The notes beneath the pieces are model-generated. The model saw nothing but the letters and a program-made list of their open reading frames with translations. It made no database searches and was not told where the DNA came from. From the IMG/VR virus record IMGVR_UViG_3300009705_000141, positions 1 through 22,396 of that record: DNA of 22,396 nucleotides; one strand, given 5' to 3'. This document shows positions 2,961-16,723 of this stretch, one piece after another. The first letter of the stretch is position 1, and the number at the start of each line of letters is the position of its first letter. Origin of the DNA: a virus. The position numbers and the translations under genes were made by a program.

Positions 2961-4256
2961 CTACTTTTCTAAATCAATTCTATCGAACTTCTTTTTAATA
3001 TAGCTCAAAGAGCCAATATAGTCAAACGTTTTATTTAAGATTCTTTCAAAAGTGTCGAGGGCCACCATTTCGTTGCGTCGGAATACTTCCATGCAGTTGT
3101 CAATAAGTAAATTTCTTTCATTGGGCGTAAAATGACTTTCCTCTTCCACAAATCTAATGGTGCAGTAAAGACGAAAAAAATAAAATTTGTTGTAACGAGC
3201 GGCAAGACTATCGGGCGTGTAGTCAATCGGCTTTGTTGCCTTAACTACCGTCTTTTGGCTCTTGCCACAACTCGTAGCCTCATAGGCAGGATATTTAACT
3301 TGGTTATAGAACCTAAGCATTGAATTCCTAAAATTTGGATAATAACGACGATGGGCTGGGATATAAGCTGTTCTTAAAATTTTGTCGGTGTCTCCTAGAT
3401 TACTCTGCGCGGCCTTTCTCAACATGGCGCTTGAGGCTATGTCGGCTACGAGGCGCCAAGGATAGAACTTATCAACCATAAACCCATAAGACCTACAGGC
3501 GTTCAGATAGAATAGCCAGTTTCTACTATTGGTGAATTTCAAAACCTTATCCAGATCTGCAGCGGGCTTGAGGTCTGCTATTTCAATCACAAGCCCTGAG
3601 CTATGTATGGACCCGTAATTGCTTTTTACAAAAGCTGGAAAAGTAAACGGCTGCTTGCGAGCTGTTTTTTGGAGAAACGGCATTAGTTTGTTTATAAACT
3701 CATCAAAGTTAGTGATTGGCACTTCTTTTTCCTTAAAAAGAGAATCGATTGTTGACGTATAAATTTTCAAATGGGAGGCATATACTTTCTCAGGATTTTC
3801 ATATGCCTTATAAACCAAAAGCTCCGATAAATATTTATCCGAGGGGTTAATCATCTGCGACATTGTTGCTTTTTTAAACTGGTAAGCCATCTCGGTAAAG
3901 TTTTTCTCCACAAAATCCAGCGCTTTAAACTCTGCTTCGGCTTTGCTGCTCTGCTTCAGGGCTACAAGTTGGGCGCCAATATTGGATGGAATGATAGGTA
4001 CAAATGAGCGACTGGTGCGGCCGTAAAGGTGTTTTTCGGCAAAATTAAAATCAACCAAATTTGAATACTCTTCACCAAACCGTGCAATTTCATTTTTATA
4101 AAGGATCCTTTTATTATACACATCTTTCGTAGTGTTCGCAGCGTTAATGCCTTTAAGATACCAGTCTTCCAGATTCTGAGGAGTACTGTCGCCTGCCTCC
4201 GCATCTATATCTGCTGGTGATTCACTTTGTTTATATATTAATTTATTGGTGGCCAC
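2961..4256 (-). CDS. Conserved-looking 431-aa protein of unknown function
   Basis: I do not recognise a family. The protein starts with GTG, preceded by AGGAG at good spacing. The first 30 residues are polar and acidic (SPADIDAEAGDSTPQNLEDW), which suggests a flexible N-terminus. The rest looks like a folded, mostly helical, aromatic-rich and basic protein, with no signal peptide or membrane segment. A segment near residues 245-290 is rich in Tyr, Phe and Trp (NWLFYLNACRSYGF onward). Five Tyr/His/Arg-rich turns follow around 300-320. It is packed between the putative hub gene (11 bases upstream) and the polymerase gene (5 bases downstream). It could be a virion or injected protein, by its upstream neighbours, or a replication accessory, by its downstream neighbours. 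The sequence does not decide between these. Confidence 0.85.
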   Translation of the reverse strand: MATNKLIYKQSESPADIDAEAGDSTPQNLEDWYLKGINAANTTKDVYNKRILYKNEIARFGEEYSNLVDFNFAEKHLYGRTSRSFVPIIPSNIGAQLVALKQSSKAEAEFKALDFVEKNFTEMAYQFKKATMSQMINPSDKYLSELLVYKAYENPEKVYASHLKIYTSTIDSLFKEKEVPITNFDEFINKLMPFLQKTARKQPFTFPAFVKSNYGSIHSSGLVIEIADLKPAADLDKVLKFTNSRNWLFYLNACRSYGFMVDKFYPWRLVADIASSAMLRKAAQSNLGDTDKILRTAYIPAHRRYYPNFRNSMLRFYNQVKYPAYEATSCGKSQKTVVKATKPIDYTPDSLAARYNKFYFFRLYCTIRFVEEESHFTPNERNLLIDNCMEVFRRNEMVALDTFERILNKTFDYIGSLSYIKKKFDRIDLEK

Positions 4257-4267
4257 TGGTTACACTC

Positions 4268-7200
4268 CTACTTTTTCTTGCTGACATTATCTTTCGGTTC
4301 TTTATTTTTTTTGTCTTTATTGGCTTTTGAAGCAATATTGTTAGCTTTTTTCAGATATTGACATTTTTCTTTCTTCTCTTTTTTATCGACTTTACGAGTT
4401 TCTTTATCTTCTTTCTTCTTAGCGATCTCTGACACCCACGTGGCGTTTATTGTGGTATTTGCCTCTCCAGCGCCAAACTTATGAGAAGAGCGGATTATCA
4501 TATAATACCCTCCGATACCATAGGTACTTAGCTCTTGGGCACTAATATCACCTGGACTAACTTTTGCGTTAAAGGTCATGTTTGGCACTAAACCTCTCGG
4601 ATTGACAAATATGTAACTTCCTGGAAACGCACTAACATTCGCATAGGTGTTGATAGTGACATTATACACCTCTCTCATCTGCTCAAGTCCATTATATCCT
4701 TCTTGTTCATACCTTACCTCTTTAAGCCCGGGAGTCTCGGTTTTTTGGAATTTGATATTTTTTACAATTCCCCTATCTTTGCCTGCTGTGTAGTGCATGA
4801 TGCCGTTGGGGGTGTCCTCTCCAATTATACCATTCATTTTCTCGTTGGGGGCGGTACGACCAGCATAATAACAAACGTAGTTTATTTCATAAGGGGTGTC
4901 CCTGACGTTGATTGGGCTGCCTGGTGGTCCGGACATTTCTAAAATAGGCCAGGACTTTATTGGGTTCGAAGCATGCTGCACACCAGTCATATCCGCCCCA
5001 TTATGGTAGTGCAGATGTAATCGCGCAACATCATATGAGGTTCGGTCTTCCGTATCAACCCTGTAGTCAGATAGCATTTGACTGATTGTGTCATAGCTAT
5101 TGGGGCGCTTATTGTACGCAGTTACCGCTGCTTGCATAAGGAACGTCTTTTGTTTTGATTGTCCTCTCCCTCTTGGAAAGCAATGTCCATCGTTAATAAA
5201 GCCGTTCACTAATCCATTAATAAAGTCATTTAGGAAAGCAGAGATTGCATAATAGGGGCGGTCTTTAGAGAGTGTGCGCCCAGTGAGCCACTCCATAAAA
5301 TACTTAAATGAAATAGGTAAATCACCAATATTTACACATGCGCTATTTGCAGGATTTCGAGGATCTACAATTTCTATTGGACCCAAAAGACACCTGTATC
5401 TTTTAAAGTTTTCCTGCATTCGGAGAGTTCTACGCAAATCCAGTTCGGCTTCCCGCAGAGAGTGTTGCTTGAATTCTTCTTTCATGGTGTCGATGGCATG
5501 CCAATCTTCCCATACATTTTTGGCTCTATGGGCATCTCGTTGTTTTTGATCTTCCTCCGTGGGAGGAGTTTCAATAGTACTTTTTATTTTTCTATGATAG
5601 ACCGCTGTTGTTTCGAGATCATCATCGATTCCTTTCAAAATAACGTCTAATAAATCGCTAATATAAAAGTAAACTAACGCAATCTGCTGAGTGCTATTGG
5701 CGTTCTTGTTATCTTTGTGCCCTTTTCCTGCAGCAGTCGGGTTTTTTGAATATTCTTTGATGGCGCGGGCTAAGCCGTTGCGCTGACCCGACGTCGCGTC
5801 TCTTAGATTATTGATATCCAAGGCATCAGCCTCAGCCTTTAAAAGATCAAAATAGGGACCTTTTTCTTGAAATTCTCGAAGGGAACTATACTTTAAATTT
5901 ATAAATCGTAGTTTTCCACTATTTTTAAGATCTTTCCACATTGCGGCCCGGGCTTGGGCCAGTTCTTTAGCGACATCAGCTGCCATTTTTTCTTTATATT
6001 TGGCTAGCTCTTCGGATTCGCAGTTTTCCTGGAATTTGCGATATATTGATTCGCGGTTTTTCTGGTTTTCGATGATGGTAGAGTCACTAAAGATACTATA
6101 ACTTGGTTCATCGAAGAAATCATCGATATAAGCAAGATATTGAATCTTAAATATGACACGACCCATCTCATCAAAATCAAATGTGTGGATAGTGGGGGTC
6201 AGGTTTATCGTCACAAAAGAAGTATTCAGCATATCAGCTATCCCTTTTGGGTTTGACAGCCCCTGTATTCCGGGCGGTTTCATCCACCCTACTACCGCCT
6301 TTAACCTAAAATTTAATTTAGAAAGATTGTACAGTCGGTTGCGTTCATCTTGACTCATATCGCTGCCATGTTTTTGGATATACTTCTCCATAGTCGAATA
6401 GCCGCCCGTTTTAAGAGCAAGGTCTATGTAGGAATAGCCGCCGCGGTCTGTTGTAAGCTCATCAAACGTATTGGCAAAAATTGTTAATTCAGCACTAATA
6501 CTCTTTTTTAGAGCAAACGGATTACTGGCTTCATAATTAACAGAAAAGTTTTTAATGCCGGCTCCAAAACCACGTTTTCCTGTCGGCTTCATAAACTCCT
6601 CAAGATCCTGCCTAGTTGTAGAAGTATTAAACACCATCTCTTTAGATGTTTCCACCATTTGCCCTGTAGACTCGTCAGCTGTTTCCACAACTCGGAATAA
6701 GCGTATCTGAGGCTGCAATTGAGATAGATCCGGCGTACTTAAGTTAAGGAAGTTTTGTTGCTCGGGGTACTGGGTTAGTCTATTCATAAAGCCATACGGG
6801 GTGAGAGCATCCACCATTAGGCATGCATTGGATGGTCTCCTGACTTGTTCTCCTTCTTCTGTGGTTGCTCCTTCGTCTACATAAGGCAAATACTTATGTT
6901 CCTCTTCATCAATAGCCTCGATCTTGTGTTCTACAATTTTAAACACTTGTGACAGTAGAAAGCACTGCTCTCGATACTCTACTGTATCATACGCGATGCC
7001 GGCCCTTGATATTGTTTCCGCTGTTGAGTCTTTTGGAGCAGGCGGTGAAGCTGCTTTTTTAGCTTCCTCTTTAGCGCGCGTTAATAGATCACCTGTAAGG
7101 CTACTATGCGCTAAACTGGGGGAGCCGGCTTTGTCATTGTTCTCAGCCGTGTCCCTTAAGTGCCCCTTTAATGGCCCGAGTACCTTTAGTGCAATTCCTT

Positions 7201-11838: not shown

Positions 11839-11866
11839 AAAAAAGGCAAGAGTTCTATCTCTTACC
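11839..11866 (-). terminator. Terminator between the chaperone frames and the tape measure gene
   Basis: On the minus strand GGTAAGAG (59-66 of the 118xx block) pairs with CTCTTGCC (45-52) with one G-T wobble around a six-base loop. It is followed at once by six T (11839-11844). The loop contains the TAG stop of the 79-codon frame, so ribosomes finishing that frame would cover the hairpin. It lies 38 bases upstream of the tape measure start. Confidence 0.7.
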
Positions 11867-12094
11867 TTTTCCGGGGGGCCCATGCATGCCTTTGGGCTGG
11901 TTATGCGATGACAACGTCTGGCTTGAAGAACCACCTCGTTGTGAATCTTGCATAGCTGCATTTTCGTCTTCGATCTGTTTGGATAGACGCTGGGTAAACC
12001 ATAGCCTAAGCCCAACGGGCAAATTATAAGATTCAGTAAGCGACCATCCGCCGGCGTATTTTAGGAAGAAGAACTGCTCATATACGTTCTGCAT
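11855..12094 (-). CDS. Second tail-assembly chaperone frame, probably reached by frameshift
   Basis: The 79 codons from the ATG encode a short folded part (residues 1-40, VYEQFFFLKYAGGW then LPVGLRLWFTQRL) and a disordered, Gly/Ser/Lys-rich end. No clear ribosome binding site precedes the ATG. The same frame is open upstream to 12112 and beyond, coding GLTDEY just before the Met. It can therefore be joined to the preceding gene by a +1 or -2 shift at the T7 run at 12113-12119. That gives a fusion of about 368 residues. Its place between the tube gene and the tape measure gene, following another short gene with a slippery run, is the conserved site of frameshifted tail-assembly chaperones in tailed phages. 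Independent translation from the ATG by coupling, seven bases after the upstream stop begins, is the alternative. Confidence 0.65.
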   Translation of the reverse strand: MQNVYEQFFFLKYAGGWSLTESYNLPVGLRLWFTQRLSKQIEDENAAMQDSQRGGSSSQTLSSHNQPKGMHGPPGKGKR

Positions 12095-12098
12095 ATAC

Positions 12099-12962
12099 TC
12101 ATCGGTCAGGCCAAAAAAAGTCCGCTGTCAACGGCACCTCCATTTCCTGCTCGTGATCGCACTCAGAGCATACAAACTCTTGCGTAAGATCCAGGTCCGG
12201 ATTGGTGGCTTTATATGCGTTTCGCAAATATCGAGAATCAAGCGATGGAAGGTTTTCGACTACATATGAAATGAGTTTTGGATCATCATCACCATTAACC
12301 TGCTCAATAATTGTTTTAAGCTGTTGGGTAATATTGTGTTCTCCGTCCTTCTTGCGCTTTGAACTTTCGAGAAGCTTTAAAAGCCTCTTTTCTTCGCGGC
12401 CGGTCATTAAACTAAAAGTAACATCAATTTCAGTGCGAGGAAGAGCAACGTTAAACGTACCATCCCCATTGGGGGTTACACCAGCATCTTCAGCTTCGTC
12501 AGCTGTATCCTTTGCCTCGCACTCATTTAAATCAAACATAAACTCTTGATTAACTCCGCATGCTGGGCACGTAACACCAGTTGTGTACTCATTGCCATAA
12601 CCCGAAACACGGGTTGCAACAACAATTGCGTTTTTATCTCCGATAAGAAGACTGTTAACATCAATGCGCTTATCAATAATAACATTGCGTAAAACTCTAT
12701 CAAGAGCAATTCCCTTTTTAAGTAATGATCTCGAAGTAAGGATATCTTCCTCTTTCGCAGTCATTTGCTTTATTTCAATTGTGGACTCATTATGCAGGGG
12801 GTGATCCTCTGCGTAAAAGCGCCCACCAGATGGTAGGTCCACGAAGGAAGTAGGAACGACGAAGGAAAAGGGGGATTCCTGCGCTCCTTCTGTTGCTTGT
12901 GGAACGGGTGGATCAGCATGTGTTTGCTTTGTGCCACCTACACGTTCTCTATTTCTTGACAA
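12099..12962 (-). CDS. T4 baseplate-protein family (PF12322-like) tail-assembly protein
   Basis: The 287-aa product has the signature of this family. FVDLPSGGRFY (40-50) is followed by MTAKEEDILTSRSLLKKGIALDRVL (67-91), then a GD-containing segment (105-123). It carries CPAC at 132-135 and CSEC at 265-268, which together could form one four-cysteine zinc site. In T4 the relatives are baseplate hub and assembly proteins. Here the position before the tape measure gene, with a second frame behind it, suggests a tail-assembly chaperone. Start choice: TTG at 12962, because AGAGGTG lies eight bases upstream and no ATG lies near. The last codons (D-F-F-W) run over the T7 slippery stretch, and the stop follows four codons later. 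An acidic, low-complexity patch lies at 147-162. Confidence 0.82.
   Translation of the reverse strand: MSRNRERVGGTKQTHADPPVPQATEGAQESPFSFVVPTSFVDLPSGGRFYAEDHPLHNESTIEIKQMTAKEEDILTSRSLLKKGIALDRVLRNVIIDKRIDVNSLLIGDKNAIVVATRVSGYGNEYTTGVTCPACGVNQEFMFDLNECEAKDTADEAEDAGVTPNGDGTFNVALPRTEIDVTFSLMTGREEKRLLKLLESSKRKKDGEHNITQQLKTIIEQVNGDDDPKLISYVVENLPSLDSRYLRNAYKATNPDLDLTQEFVCSECDHEQEMEVPLTADFFWPDR
12113..12119 (-). other. Candidate programmed frameshift site (T7 run)
   Basis: On the minus strand the end of the 287-codon gene reads GAC TTT TTT TGG CCT GAC CGA TGA. Slipping +1, or -2, on the seven T moves ribosomes to GGC CTG ACC GAT GAG TAT ATG, the frame of the next small gene, which is fully open. 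The run is the longest T run inside any coding sequence of this region that I noticed. The shift itself is inferred from the chaperone position and the open fusion frame. Confidence 0.55.
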
Positions 12963-13642: not shown

Positions 13643-16600
13643 TTAGTCGTCAAAAGACGCTCCAGTTGATGCGATAACAAAGTCGATCGCAATGAACTCG
13701 ATGGCGCGTGCTGGCTTGACCATAATCTTCGCATACATGATGTTTTGATCAATCAAGTCAGGGGTGGTGGTGGTTTCGTCGAGGATCAACTTGTAGTCAG
13801 TGATACCGAAGGTGACCTTGACATTGGCGAGGAATGGTTCAACTAATGAACGGAACCTGTCCCAAGTTGCCTGTACATTCTGCTCGAAGAGAATCTTGGA
13901 CGAGATGATGGAGATTTGCTTCTTCAAGTAAATCACCAAGCGGCGTACATTGATTCTGTCCAGTGCCGACTGGCGCTCTTGTAGCGTCTTCTGACCGAAG
14001 ACTACGATTCCAGTGGATGGGAAAGACGCAATCGGGTTGATGCGTGCTTCGTAAAGAATATCACGTTCCTTAGAAGTTAGACGCTGGGTTACATTCAGAA
14101 TTGGTAGTCCTGCTGCACCTTCGGTAAGGCCGCCGCGGTTGAAACCGGCGGGAGCGAACCAAAGTTGCGACTTCTTCTGTGAACTTGCAAGAACACCCAT
14201 CATAGCGACAGTTGGCGGAATCCAAAGAAGCTTTCCGGTACCCTCGTCCCGGGTTTGAACCCATGGGTAGAAAGTGGCGCCGTAGCTTGTGTCAATCTTA
14301 TGATCTCGTAAAGATGTAGCTGCTTGATTCGGAGTGGAAGCAAGGCGGTCTGCTTTATCAGCTTTGTAGATCTCGTGAGTCGGCAAATATACGTCTGCTA
14401 AGTCGATGAGAGCCATAGCATCGCCGCGTGCCGCGCAGATATCCATCGCTTTCTCGGTTAATTGGTTGTTTGTAAGTCCGGGGGCGACGAGCATGTTCAT
14501 ATCCACTGCTTCAGGATCTGCAACTGTGTCCATTGCGCGGGCCCAGGTATGGAAAATATAATCATTGAGTTCCGTAGATGTACCAGGCGTCATTCCCTTG
14601 TTATATGAGGGATCTGGTTTCGTAATGTCCCAGCCATCGAATGCACCCCAAAGAGGCACAGTGAACTTGTTGTATCCTGCGTCTAGAATAGCTTTCCAAC
14701 TACCAGTTGTGTAGGACTCCTCCCTAGTACGAGAGCCGGAAGCGTAGTAGAATACACCAGTTGAGCCTGAGATAATATCGTCGAGTGAGAAGACATATCC
14801 CCAACCGTTATATCCACGATCACCAATTTGGGCCGCTGTGGCGGTTGCAGTTGGATCATCTGGCCAGTTTTTGGACCACATTCTGTGCATTTCACCAATC
14901 CCAGGGGTTGAGATGGTACTGTTTGTTCCGCGAGATGTTTGCATACCGAAGTAAGCATTTCGAGGATCAGTAAGTCCACCAGCAGAAGCCGAATATCTAA
15001 GACGTGCCTTCGGGAATTCCATTTTGAGAGCAAGGGTGTCGATTGTACCACTACCCGCCATGAGTCCGTGCTCCGGCGAAGCGAAGCCCCAGTCGCTGGG
15101 GCACCAGGAGGCTGAATTGGGTATCGAGAACCCGGGTGAGTTATAACCGGCTCCCGTGGTTCCGCCAGCGAGAGAACCAGAGCCGAGGAACGACACGTAA
15201 GTTCCGGAGACACTGTTAACTGAGACGGATATCCCATGTCCGCCGGCGACCATTTTTCGACTCGTGGCACCCGAAACATCCAGAAGTTTTGGAGGCCCGA
15301 AGTAACCGAAAGGAAGTGTAACGGCATCAATTGCGCCGGCTTCGACGTCGGCGTTCATTTGAATGTATACAAACTTGGAATTGTTGTCGTATTCGCCGTA
15401 CGTACGTAATCTCTTCTCCTTGGAGTCCCACTTAACATACTTATCACCGATCTTTCGGGCGACAAAGTTGGGGCTAGCTGGATTGAGAGTGCACTCGTCA
15501 TAACGCTCAAGGACGACAACATCATTATCTGAGTCATTCATATCACGAAGGATGACCGAGAATGTTCCATAATCGCTAACGGAGCTGTTAGATTGGCGAA
15601 CATTGCTAATTGAAATCTTAACATTGTCCATAAGCCATTCGCCATGGCCGCGGCCCACGAGGCGGAAAAGCTTTTGCTTACCTGGAGCATAATATTCGTC
15701 TGCGGCTCCTAAGTCCTGCCCAATGATCCAACTTGTACGCCCCTCGGTGGAGGCGACTTTCTTCATCTGGGCTGGGGTGTTCTCGGTGTCTAAGCCAGTC
15801 GACTTTTTGTCAGCGGCAAGATTATTATATCCCAAAGCGGTGATCATTCCAACCACTTTCTTGTTAGTGGACAAACCACGGTCAAGCAAATCTTGATCAA
15901 AAGTTTCTCCGAGGAAATAGTTAACTTCGCTAGCAGGCGGGTAGAAATCGCCCGCAGTCTTCAGTTGTGGGTTCGTATTAAGCTTCTTGCGAATGTAGTT
16001 CTCGGAAGAGTCGTTAAGGTCGAACTTAATTTTCTTGTTCACTGACGAAGCGGTGTAGATGAGGGCGAAAAGTCCATCGCTGCCGGCTTCAATCATAGTG
16101 TTGATTCCCTGAACGCCGTGCGTTCCAGCCTTCCCATCGGAGTCTGTGGCGCCGACCGTTCCAGTTCCGTATAAGTTTCCTGACAAAACGGGAACACCGG
16201 TCTGCGTGTAGATAATTGCGGCAAGGGACGCTGTTGCAGCGGCTCCAGAAATAATGGCGTCCGCGCCAACTGTCGATCCCGATTGTGGGAAAACCCAAAG
16301 TCCCCATGCTCCACCAGTGGTGCCTATGGCAGCTGTTGGTCCTGCATTCGTTGTAGCCCAACCTGCGGCGGCGGCGCCACCAGCGGTTCGGCCTGCGTCA
16401 GTCTGTTGTCCGAGAAGTCGCACGTAAGTAACAGGTGCGACGTTAGAGCGGAGGAAAGCCTTGGCAGCGTAGCCACCATACATAGGGGAAGTATAGTTGC
16501 CTTCGCGGTAAATATCGCTATTTCCGCCGCCAGGTACGGTATCTCCAAACATCTCAACAAATTTTGAGTATGATTCAACCTTAACGGGGGTCATTGCCAG

Positions 16601-16723
16601 GCCGCGGCGCGCGCGGCCGACGACTACTGGTCCAATCTCTGGAGCGTTTCTTGGTATAAAGGAGTTATCAATTTCATTAATGAAAACTCCTGGAGATACA
16701 AATTTAAAATTCTTTACCGACAT
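13643..16723 (-). CDS. 18: Tail sheath protein, enlarged
   Basis: The 1026-aa product is a contractile sheath subunit. The N-terminus has the family opening VSPGVFINEIDNSFIPR (9-25) and EIGPVVVGRARRGLAMTPVKV (29-49). The C-terminal third carries the conserved sheath domain: WVQTRDEGTGKLLWIPPT, FAPAGFNRGGL (about 855-865), GIVVFGQKTLQ, RLVIYLKKQI, and the final strand ARAIEFIAIDFVI near 1008-1020, which links neighbouring subunits. T4 gp18 has 659 aa; the excess lies in residues of about 110-650, which read as Gly/Ser/Thr/Ala-rich beta domains, presumably displayed on the sheath surface. The ATG has AGGAAGG at suitable spacing. The gene follows a 119-base gap that contains inverted repeats and the ACTATTTAC motif, suggesting its own transcription start. 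Confidence 0.93.
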   Translation of the reverse strand: MSVKNFKFVSPGVFINEIDNSFIPRNAPEIGPVVVGRARRGLAMTPVKVESYSKFVEMFGDTVPGGGNSDIYREGNYTSPMYGGYAAKAFLRSNVAPVTYVRLLGQQTDAGRTAGGAAAAGWATTNAGPTAAIGTTGGAWGLWVFPQSGSTVGADAIISGAAATASLAAIIYTQTGVPVLSGNLYGTGTVGATDSDGKAGTHGVQGINTMIEAGSDGLFALIYTASSVNKKIKFDLNDSSENYIRKKLNTNPQLKTAGDFYPPASEVNYFLGETFDQDLLDRGLSTNKKVVGMITALGYNNLAADKKSTGLDTENTPAQMKKVASTEGRTSWIIGQDLGAADEYYAPGKQKLFRLVGRGHGEWLMDNVKISISNVRQSNSSVSDYGTFSVILRDMNDSDNDVVVLERYDECTLNPASPNFVARKIGDKYVKWDSKEKRLRTYGEYDNNSKFVYIQMNADVEAGAIDAVTLPFGYFGPPKLLDVSGATSRKMVAGGHGISVSVNSVSGTYVSFLGSGSLAGGTTGAGYNSPGFSIPNSASWCPSDWGFASPEHGLMAGSGTIDTLALKMEFPKARLRYSASAGGLTDPRNAYFGMQTSRGTNSTISTPGIGEMHRMWSKNWPDDPTATATAAQIGDRGYNGWGYVFSLDDIISGSTGVFYYASGSRTREESYTTGSWKAILDAGYNKFTVPLWGAFDGWDITKPDPSYNKGMTPGTSTELNDYIFHTWARAMDTVADPEAVDMNMLVAPGLTNNQLTEKAMDICAARGDAMALIDLADVYLPTHEIYKADKADRLASTPNQAATSLRDHKIDTSYGATFYPWVQTRDEGTGKLLWIPPTVAMMGVLASSQKKSQLWFAPAGFNRGGLTEGAAGLPILNVTQRLTSKERDILYEARINPIASFPSTGIVVFGQKTLQERQSALDRINVRRLVIYLKKQISIISSKILFEQNVQATWDRFRSLVEPFLANVKVTFGITDYKLILDETTTTPDLIDQNIMYAKIMVKPARAIEFIAIDFVIASTGASFDD

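Follow-up and report, generated by a model that had tools for sequence, protein, structure and literature searches.

Evidence for a +1 ribosomal frameshift joining two probable tail assembly chaperone frames in a far-T4 myovirus

Introduction

A frameshift that produces the G and GT tail assembly chaperones of phage lambda was reportedly described by Xu, Hendrix and Duda in 2004. The lambda G/GT system has been reviewed, and the 2016 review regards tail-chaperone frameshifting as widely conserved in long-tailed phages, with T4 as an exception (PMC5009743). The T4 proteins gp26 and gp51 are classed among the chaperones of hub assembly (PMC3004832). The gp51 of cyanophages is said to be without about 200 N-terminal residues (PMC3037559). 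No description of a gp26-gp51 frameshift turned up in a search of the open-access literature. On 70S ribosomes, +1 slippage is stimulated by a Shine-Dalgarno (SD) helix adjacent to the E site or by a refolding hairpin, and an SD sequence 8–11 nt upstream stimulates −1 slippage (PMC6321510).

The DNA analyzed here, called the window, is a stretch of 22,396 nucleotides (IMG/VR record IMGVR_UViG_3300009705_000141); these 22 kb belong to a far-T4 myovirus. Its gp26-like gene, A, overlaps at the 3′ end with a second frame, B. Judged from the sequence and its relatives, it is highly probable that A and B constitute a tail assembly chaperone of the lambda G/GT type made by +1 frameshifting.

Results

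Tail genes of the window and their relatives

The capsid protein of the window resembles T4-type capsids. Over its full length it is best matched by Microcystis phage Mel-JY01 and Rhodothermus phage RM378; an uncultured phage of 484 kb and Flavobacterium phage immuto match half of its length. The tail genes occupy the minus strand, where the sheath gene is followed by the tube gene (13596–12994), A (12962–12099), B (to 11855) and the tape measure candidate (11801–9204). The tube protein, 5′ of A, matches phrog_4542 tail tube (E 3.5e-26). The tape measure candidate, 3′ of B, is proposed by its size (865 aa), position and coiled-coil-like sequence, and a search of Pfam profiles gave no match for it. 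In immuto and LIS04, annotated tape measure genes come after A-B. The preliminary description placed the two frames at the tail-chaperone position before the tape measure gene, and the neighbors on both sides agree with this placement. As in lambda, the overlapping frames are found between the tail tube and tape measure genes.

Two further features of these genes were observed. The tail sheath protein (13643–16723, minus strand; 1026 aa) has its profile matches chiefly in the C-terminal third. TTG is the apparent start of both gene A (12962) and the tape measure candidate (11801), each with a GAGG-type SD sequence. SD-like starts occur in 11 of the 17 window genes checked, which makes SD pairing plausible in the host.

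Two sets of homologues were read at the A/B junction, one of 80 from IMG/VR with 54–100% identity and a wider second set. The 149 distinct homologues come from many separate assemblies, with identity down to about 30%.

Gene A and frame B

Gene A (12099–12962, minus strand) encodes a zero-frame product of 287 aa with two CxxC zinc-type sites. The product matches PF12322 T4_baseplate (E 6.2e-18; 65.7 bits, exceeding the gathering cut-off of 24.5), a match shared with T4 gp26 and gp51, and the phrog_150 baseplate hub (E 1.3e-18). Unlike in lambda, a gp26-type zinc protein stands in place of the G sequence. AlphaFold2 models were made for A and B separately. The best PDB fold match of the A model (pLDDT 86.6) is the HK97 tail assembly chaperone 2ob9, a weak match (E 0.33, probability 0.80), and a search of the PDB for sequence relatives of A returned none. 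The position of the genes, the listing of T4 gp26 and gp51 and the modeled folds are together suggestive of a chaperone role.

The 3′ end of A reads GCG GAC TTT TTT TGG CCT GAC CGA TGA, with the TGA at 12101–12099. The stop thus comes four codons after the T run (W P D R stop), as had been noted earlier. One base past the frame of A, the sequence reads GGC CTG ACC GAT GAG TAT ATG and onward. This +1 frame becomes open 29 nt before A's stop codon ends and continues to the stop codon 11857–11855, so the second frame is indeed continuously open as first described. The coding part of B (11858–12112, minus strand) comprises 85 residues from GGC with three predicted helices. Translation across the shift yields a predicted A-B fusion of 368 residues (11858–12962, minus strand), the size of about 368 originally proposed. 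A short product and a predicted longer one carrying a T-like C-terminal extension again parallel lambda G and GT.

Substitutions in B fall 106/45/365 on the three codon positions of the B frame. With 113 homologues and 32 independent pairs, the mean dN is 0.056 and the mean dS 1.0 (dN/dS about 0.06). B is under purifying selection and evolves as a protein in the +1 frame.

The B model (pLDDT 80.6) matched no fold in the PDB; its viral fold matches, weak with E above 0.3, include P-HM1 gp51 as well as proteins that bear the name tape measure chaperone. Window B matches a cyanophage B/gp51 profile (E 2e-5, probability 76%), and a direct profile comparison with the T4 gp51 C-terminus is not significant (E 0.47). 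By these profiles B is linked to T4 gp51 only by way of cyanophage intermediates, a remote relation. Membership of B in DUF6760 (PF20546) was considered and rejected, as window B scores 16.9 bits, below the gathering cut-off of 27. The DUF6760 profile is matched by 10 of 18 B proteins (best E 2.5e-4), and the resemblance may be taken as a lead to kinship only. DUF6760 was sought in 14 control genomes and in loci L100, L082 and L086, and was found in none. In three loci of bacterial genomes (L203, L204 and L207) one open frame encodes a DUF6760 domain fused to a gp26-like zinc protein; in another, L206, a TGATG restart separates the gp26-like and DUF6760 parts.

The shift site and the direction of the shift

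The shift site, UUU UUU U (12113–12119, minus strand), consists of codons 282–283 and the first base of UGG. TTTTTTTGG is present at this place in 133 of the 149 distinct homologues, and a related form in a further 13. B lies in the +1 frame in 139 homologues, is truncated in 7, and lies in the −1 frame in 3 remote relatives. The slippery site and the frame relation are thus both conserved. The +1 relation is also retained with the variants TTTCTTTGG, TTCTTTTGG, TTCTTTCGT, TTTTTTCAC and others. A rule common to the sites is UUU followed by U or C, to which LIS04 (TTT TTT AGT) conforms at its first UUU. All +1 users form one supported clade in the tree.

A run of seven Ts invites the suspicion of a sequencing or assembly error, since homopolymers are error-prone, or of a decayed pseudogene. 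Both are excluded by the conservation, however: 139 of the 149 homologues, drawn from many assemblies and as low as about 30% in identity, have this frame relation, and purifying selection acts on B. RNA polymerase slippage on the run, yielding a mixed mRNA population, is conceivable in that seven Ts could slip at a low level. The frames nevertheless remain unchanged where the run is broken as TTT C TTT, TTC TTTT or TTC TTT C. These interruptions of the homopolymer argue against polymerase slippage as well as sequencing error, and the SD and hairpin signals described below implicate the ribosome, leaving slippage of the polymerase extremely improbable.

The preliminary description left the shift as +1 or −2. 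A −2 ribosomal shift, known in phage Mu (PMC5009743), would bring about the same frame and give DFFFGL in the product, and the run of seven Ts would let tRNA-Phe re-pair two bases back. The variants separate the two directions. TTC TTT TGG is found in L147, L148, L155 and L160, and TTC TTT CGT in Streptococcus phage vB_SagM-GXN1. On both, the tRNA-Phe of the second codon finds a perfect match one base forward, whereas two bases back it faces UCU; TTC TTT variants thus keep the frame where Mu-type re-pairing fails. In L082, with TTT CTA, +1 re-pairing on UUC is possible and −2 re-pairing on ACU is not. TTT CTT variants are uninformative, for wobble pairing is possible in either direction. Variants that pair at +1 but not at −2 indicate that the shift is +1, and the −2 half of the original proposal, very unlikely in our estimate, is not upheld. 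A +1 programmed frameshift at the T run is, from this comparison, very likely. The shift was also called unusual; this is so, but +1 and −2 shifts in tail chaperones have already been reported in a few other phages (PMC5009743).

Initiation of B

An alternative to fusion is that B is a separate gene started from the ATG at 12094, or reached by termination-reinitiation. The ATG is 5 nt past the stop of A, and restart arrangements do exist in some distant relatives and tail-like bacterial loci (Cygsa01, TAATG; L206, TGATG). In the window this ATG is without an SD sequence, in line with the first account, and it is kept in 70 of 113 homologues and missing in 43. The window's group was examined for homologues whose second gene has a normal ribosome binding site and does not overlap A, and an ATG with an SD sequence near the shift site was found in only 7 of the 113. 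Moreover, G-L directly behind the shift point never varies within the window's group when read in the B frame, and G-L-[TSDN], 5′ of the ATG, is retained in that frame from the point of the shift onward. The conserved GGAGGT upstream also has no start codon within a usable distance. Independent initiation of B is accordingly rated as most improbable, and the comparison favors B being made as a fusion only. With B selected, its start not conserved and the +1 relation prevalent, the earlier proposal of a programmed shift fusing the two frames is strongly supported.

RNA signals upstream of the shift site

In 114 non-redundant homologues, synonymous conservation in gene A is strongest at 7 of the 121 testable codons, all of them among its last 13: GAG275, CCG277, GCG280, GAC281, TTT282, TTT283 and CCT285. 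Conservation of the shift site is far beyond chance. Since codons 275–281 are read in frame 0 only, the constraint there acts on RNA.

Two elements lie in this region. The first is an internal SD sequence, GGAGGT (12136–12141, minus strand), in codons 274–276. GGAGG is kept in 97 of the 114 homologues, while 1000 synonymous shuffles average 32 and never exceed 46. Codon 274 is ATG, CTG, TTG, GTG or ACG, always ending in G. The anti-SD energy at GGAGGT averages −8.9 kcal/mol against a median of −0.2, the lowest of all aligned segments.

The second is a small hairpin, CCGU-UGACA-GCGG, between the SD sequence and the shift site (12122–12134, minus strand; arms 12134–12131 and 12125–12122). The consensus among homologues is CCGC-N5-GCGG. 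The 15-nt segment holding it has a mean MFE of −4.7 kcal/mol compared with −0.4 in synonymous shuffles, the lowest of 269 segments. Several divergent relatives have hairpins of other sequence at the same place, such as one of 7 pairs in L082, and those of L093, L095 and L096 exceed their own synonymous nulls. Over 29 sequences, which are related and of which several are without a hairpin, the combined p is 2e-6. Covariation is not significant: 87% of the cells are paired against 25–55% when slid, and letter shuffles are not clearly beaten. The hairpin therefore rests on synonymous conservation and on the different-sequence hairpins of some relatives.

Neither element is universal. The hairpin is absent in several +1 relatives including SP-15, LIS04, GXN1 and immuto, and the first three of these +1 phages have neither SD sequence nor hairpin. 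In the lineage of L144, L146, L147 and L158 the SD sequence, AAGGAGGT, lies 6 nt farther upstream of the shift site with a different or weak hairpin, and the effective spacing from SD to site is thus not constant. Downstream RNA structure was rejected as a stimulator, because the 83 nt that follow the run are less stably folded than shuffled sequences (z +1.8).

Gp26 and gp51 in other T4-related phages

In cyanophages, pelagiphages and several further phages related to T4, the gp26 gene has a canonical −1 heptamer at its end and is accompanied by a B-type frame in −1. The heptamer is T TTT TTC in DSL-LC02, P-TIM68, Syn1, S-RIM2, avDM12, YB07 and OLIVR6, T TTT TTG in RL2RES, and T TTT TTT in HTVC008M and C48C1. 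All 79 distinct cyanophage-like loci from IMG/VR possess the TTTTTTC −1 site. GAGGG is located 9 nt upstream in 55 of 78, and any SD-like motif upstream of the −1 site in 56 loci, against a shuffle mean of 38 and a maximum of 52. The gp26-gp51 of Kyanoviridae (cyanophages and pelagiphages) therefore resembles A-B in having a short B-type frame that overlaps gp26 and a shift site at the gp26 end, and differs in having B in −1 at T TTT TTC with the SD-like GAGGG 9 nt upstream. The preliminary account recognized the T run and the fusion, but overlooked the internal SD sequence, the hairpin and this −1 counterpart.

For the cyanophage-like and related T4-type phages with this −1 arrangement (L210–L289, L182, L184–L190, L193 and L194), none of the records seen annotates gp26 and the gp51-like B as a joined feature. 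In the jumbo Pseudomonas phage Paride (L089, about 3790–3816), the end of the gp26-like gene, AGT TTT TTC with an open −1 frame, is a canonical −1 site; the gene is apart from the sheath and tube genes. In Vi01, D532 and Cygsa01, A and B overlap without a canonical site, and B may be made by restart.

T4 itself does without a frameshift and encodes the two proteins in separate genes, one on each strand. Its gp26 (208 aa; 4303–4929, minus strand, of L090) and gp51 (249 aa; 4980–5729, plus strand) both match PF12322 and group together in the tree, weakly and on long branches. About 48 residues of T4 gp51 are C-terminal to the PF12322 domain and match cyanophage B with 97% probability.

Discussion

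In the scheme deduced from these comparisons, most ribosomes would read A to its TGA and produce the 287-residue gp26-like chaperone. In a minority, the P-site tRNA-Phe on UUU in UUU UUU U would slip one base forward and re-pair on the overlapping UUU, and these ribosomes would continue at GGC through B to the 368-residue fusion. GGAGGT and the intervening hairpin probably stimulate the shift. GGAGG and the run are 17 nt apart in the linear sequence; with the 13-nt hairpin folded the gap would be about 4 nt, a close spacing favoring +1. The SD helix and hairpin would then push the ribosome forward with UGG waiting in the A site. This stimulation is plausible. For the proteins, a place of A and B in the G/GT chaperone scheme is likely: A would form a coat on the tape measure protein, and the B end would recruit the tail tube.

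The proposed reaction differs from that of lambda in being +1 rather than −1, at UUU UUU U, with an upstream internal SD sequence and hairpin. It resembles E. coli prfB in that a P-site tRNA on a U-rich codon slips by +1 and an internal SD sequence lies upstream. Unlike in prfB, the A site holds UGG instead of a stop codon, the SD sequence is 17 nt away linearly with a hairpin between, and autoregulation is not expected. A hairpin that follows an SD sequence and shortens the effective spacing has a precedent in the split ribosome binding sites of T4 genes 25 and 38, the former located at the gene 26-25 junction (PMC3014915). The T4 hairpin serves AUG initiation, whereas frameshifting is proposed here.

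The comparison suggests that the T4 superfamily does use tail-chaperone frameshifting, +1 in the far-T4 group and −1 in cyanophages, pelagiphages and others, and that T4 genes 26 and 51 are a two-gene replacement of the frameshifted chaperone. A two-gene chaperone without frameshift in phage 0305phi8-36 is a published parallel (PMC2147016). A broader proposal is that the whole superfamily has a frameshifted gp26-gp51 chaperone whose direction is set by the effective SD spacing, 9 nt giving −1 in cyanophages and 17 nt shortened by the hairpin to about 4 giving +1 in far-T4 phages, the T4 shift being lost by a split into the paralogous genes 26 and 51. We put this forward tentatively, our doubts slightly outweighing our belief.

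If the A-B reading is true, the fusion protein is missing from thousands of annotated genomes. The poorly understood gp26 and gp51 of T4 would gain a testable role as the G-like and GT-like proteins that chaperone the tape measure protein gp29. The reading accounts as well for the cyanophage gp51 that seems to miss its first 200 residues (PMC3037559), as gp26 would supply them through the shift. The internal SD sequence and hairpin would offer a natural system for studying how the spacing of an upstream duplex sets the direction of the shift.
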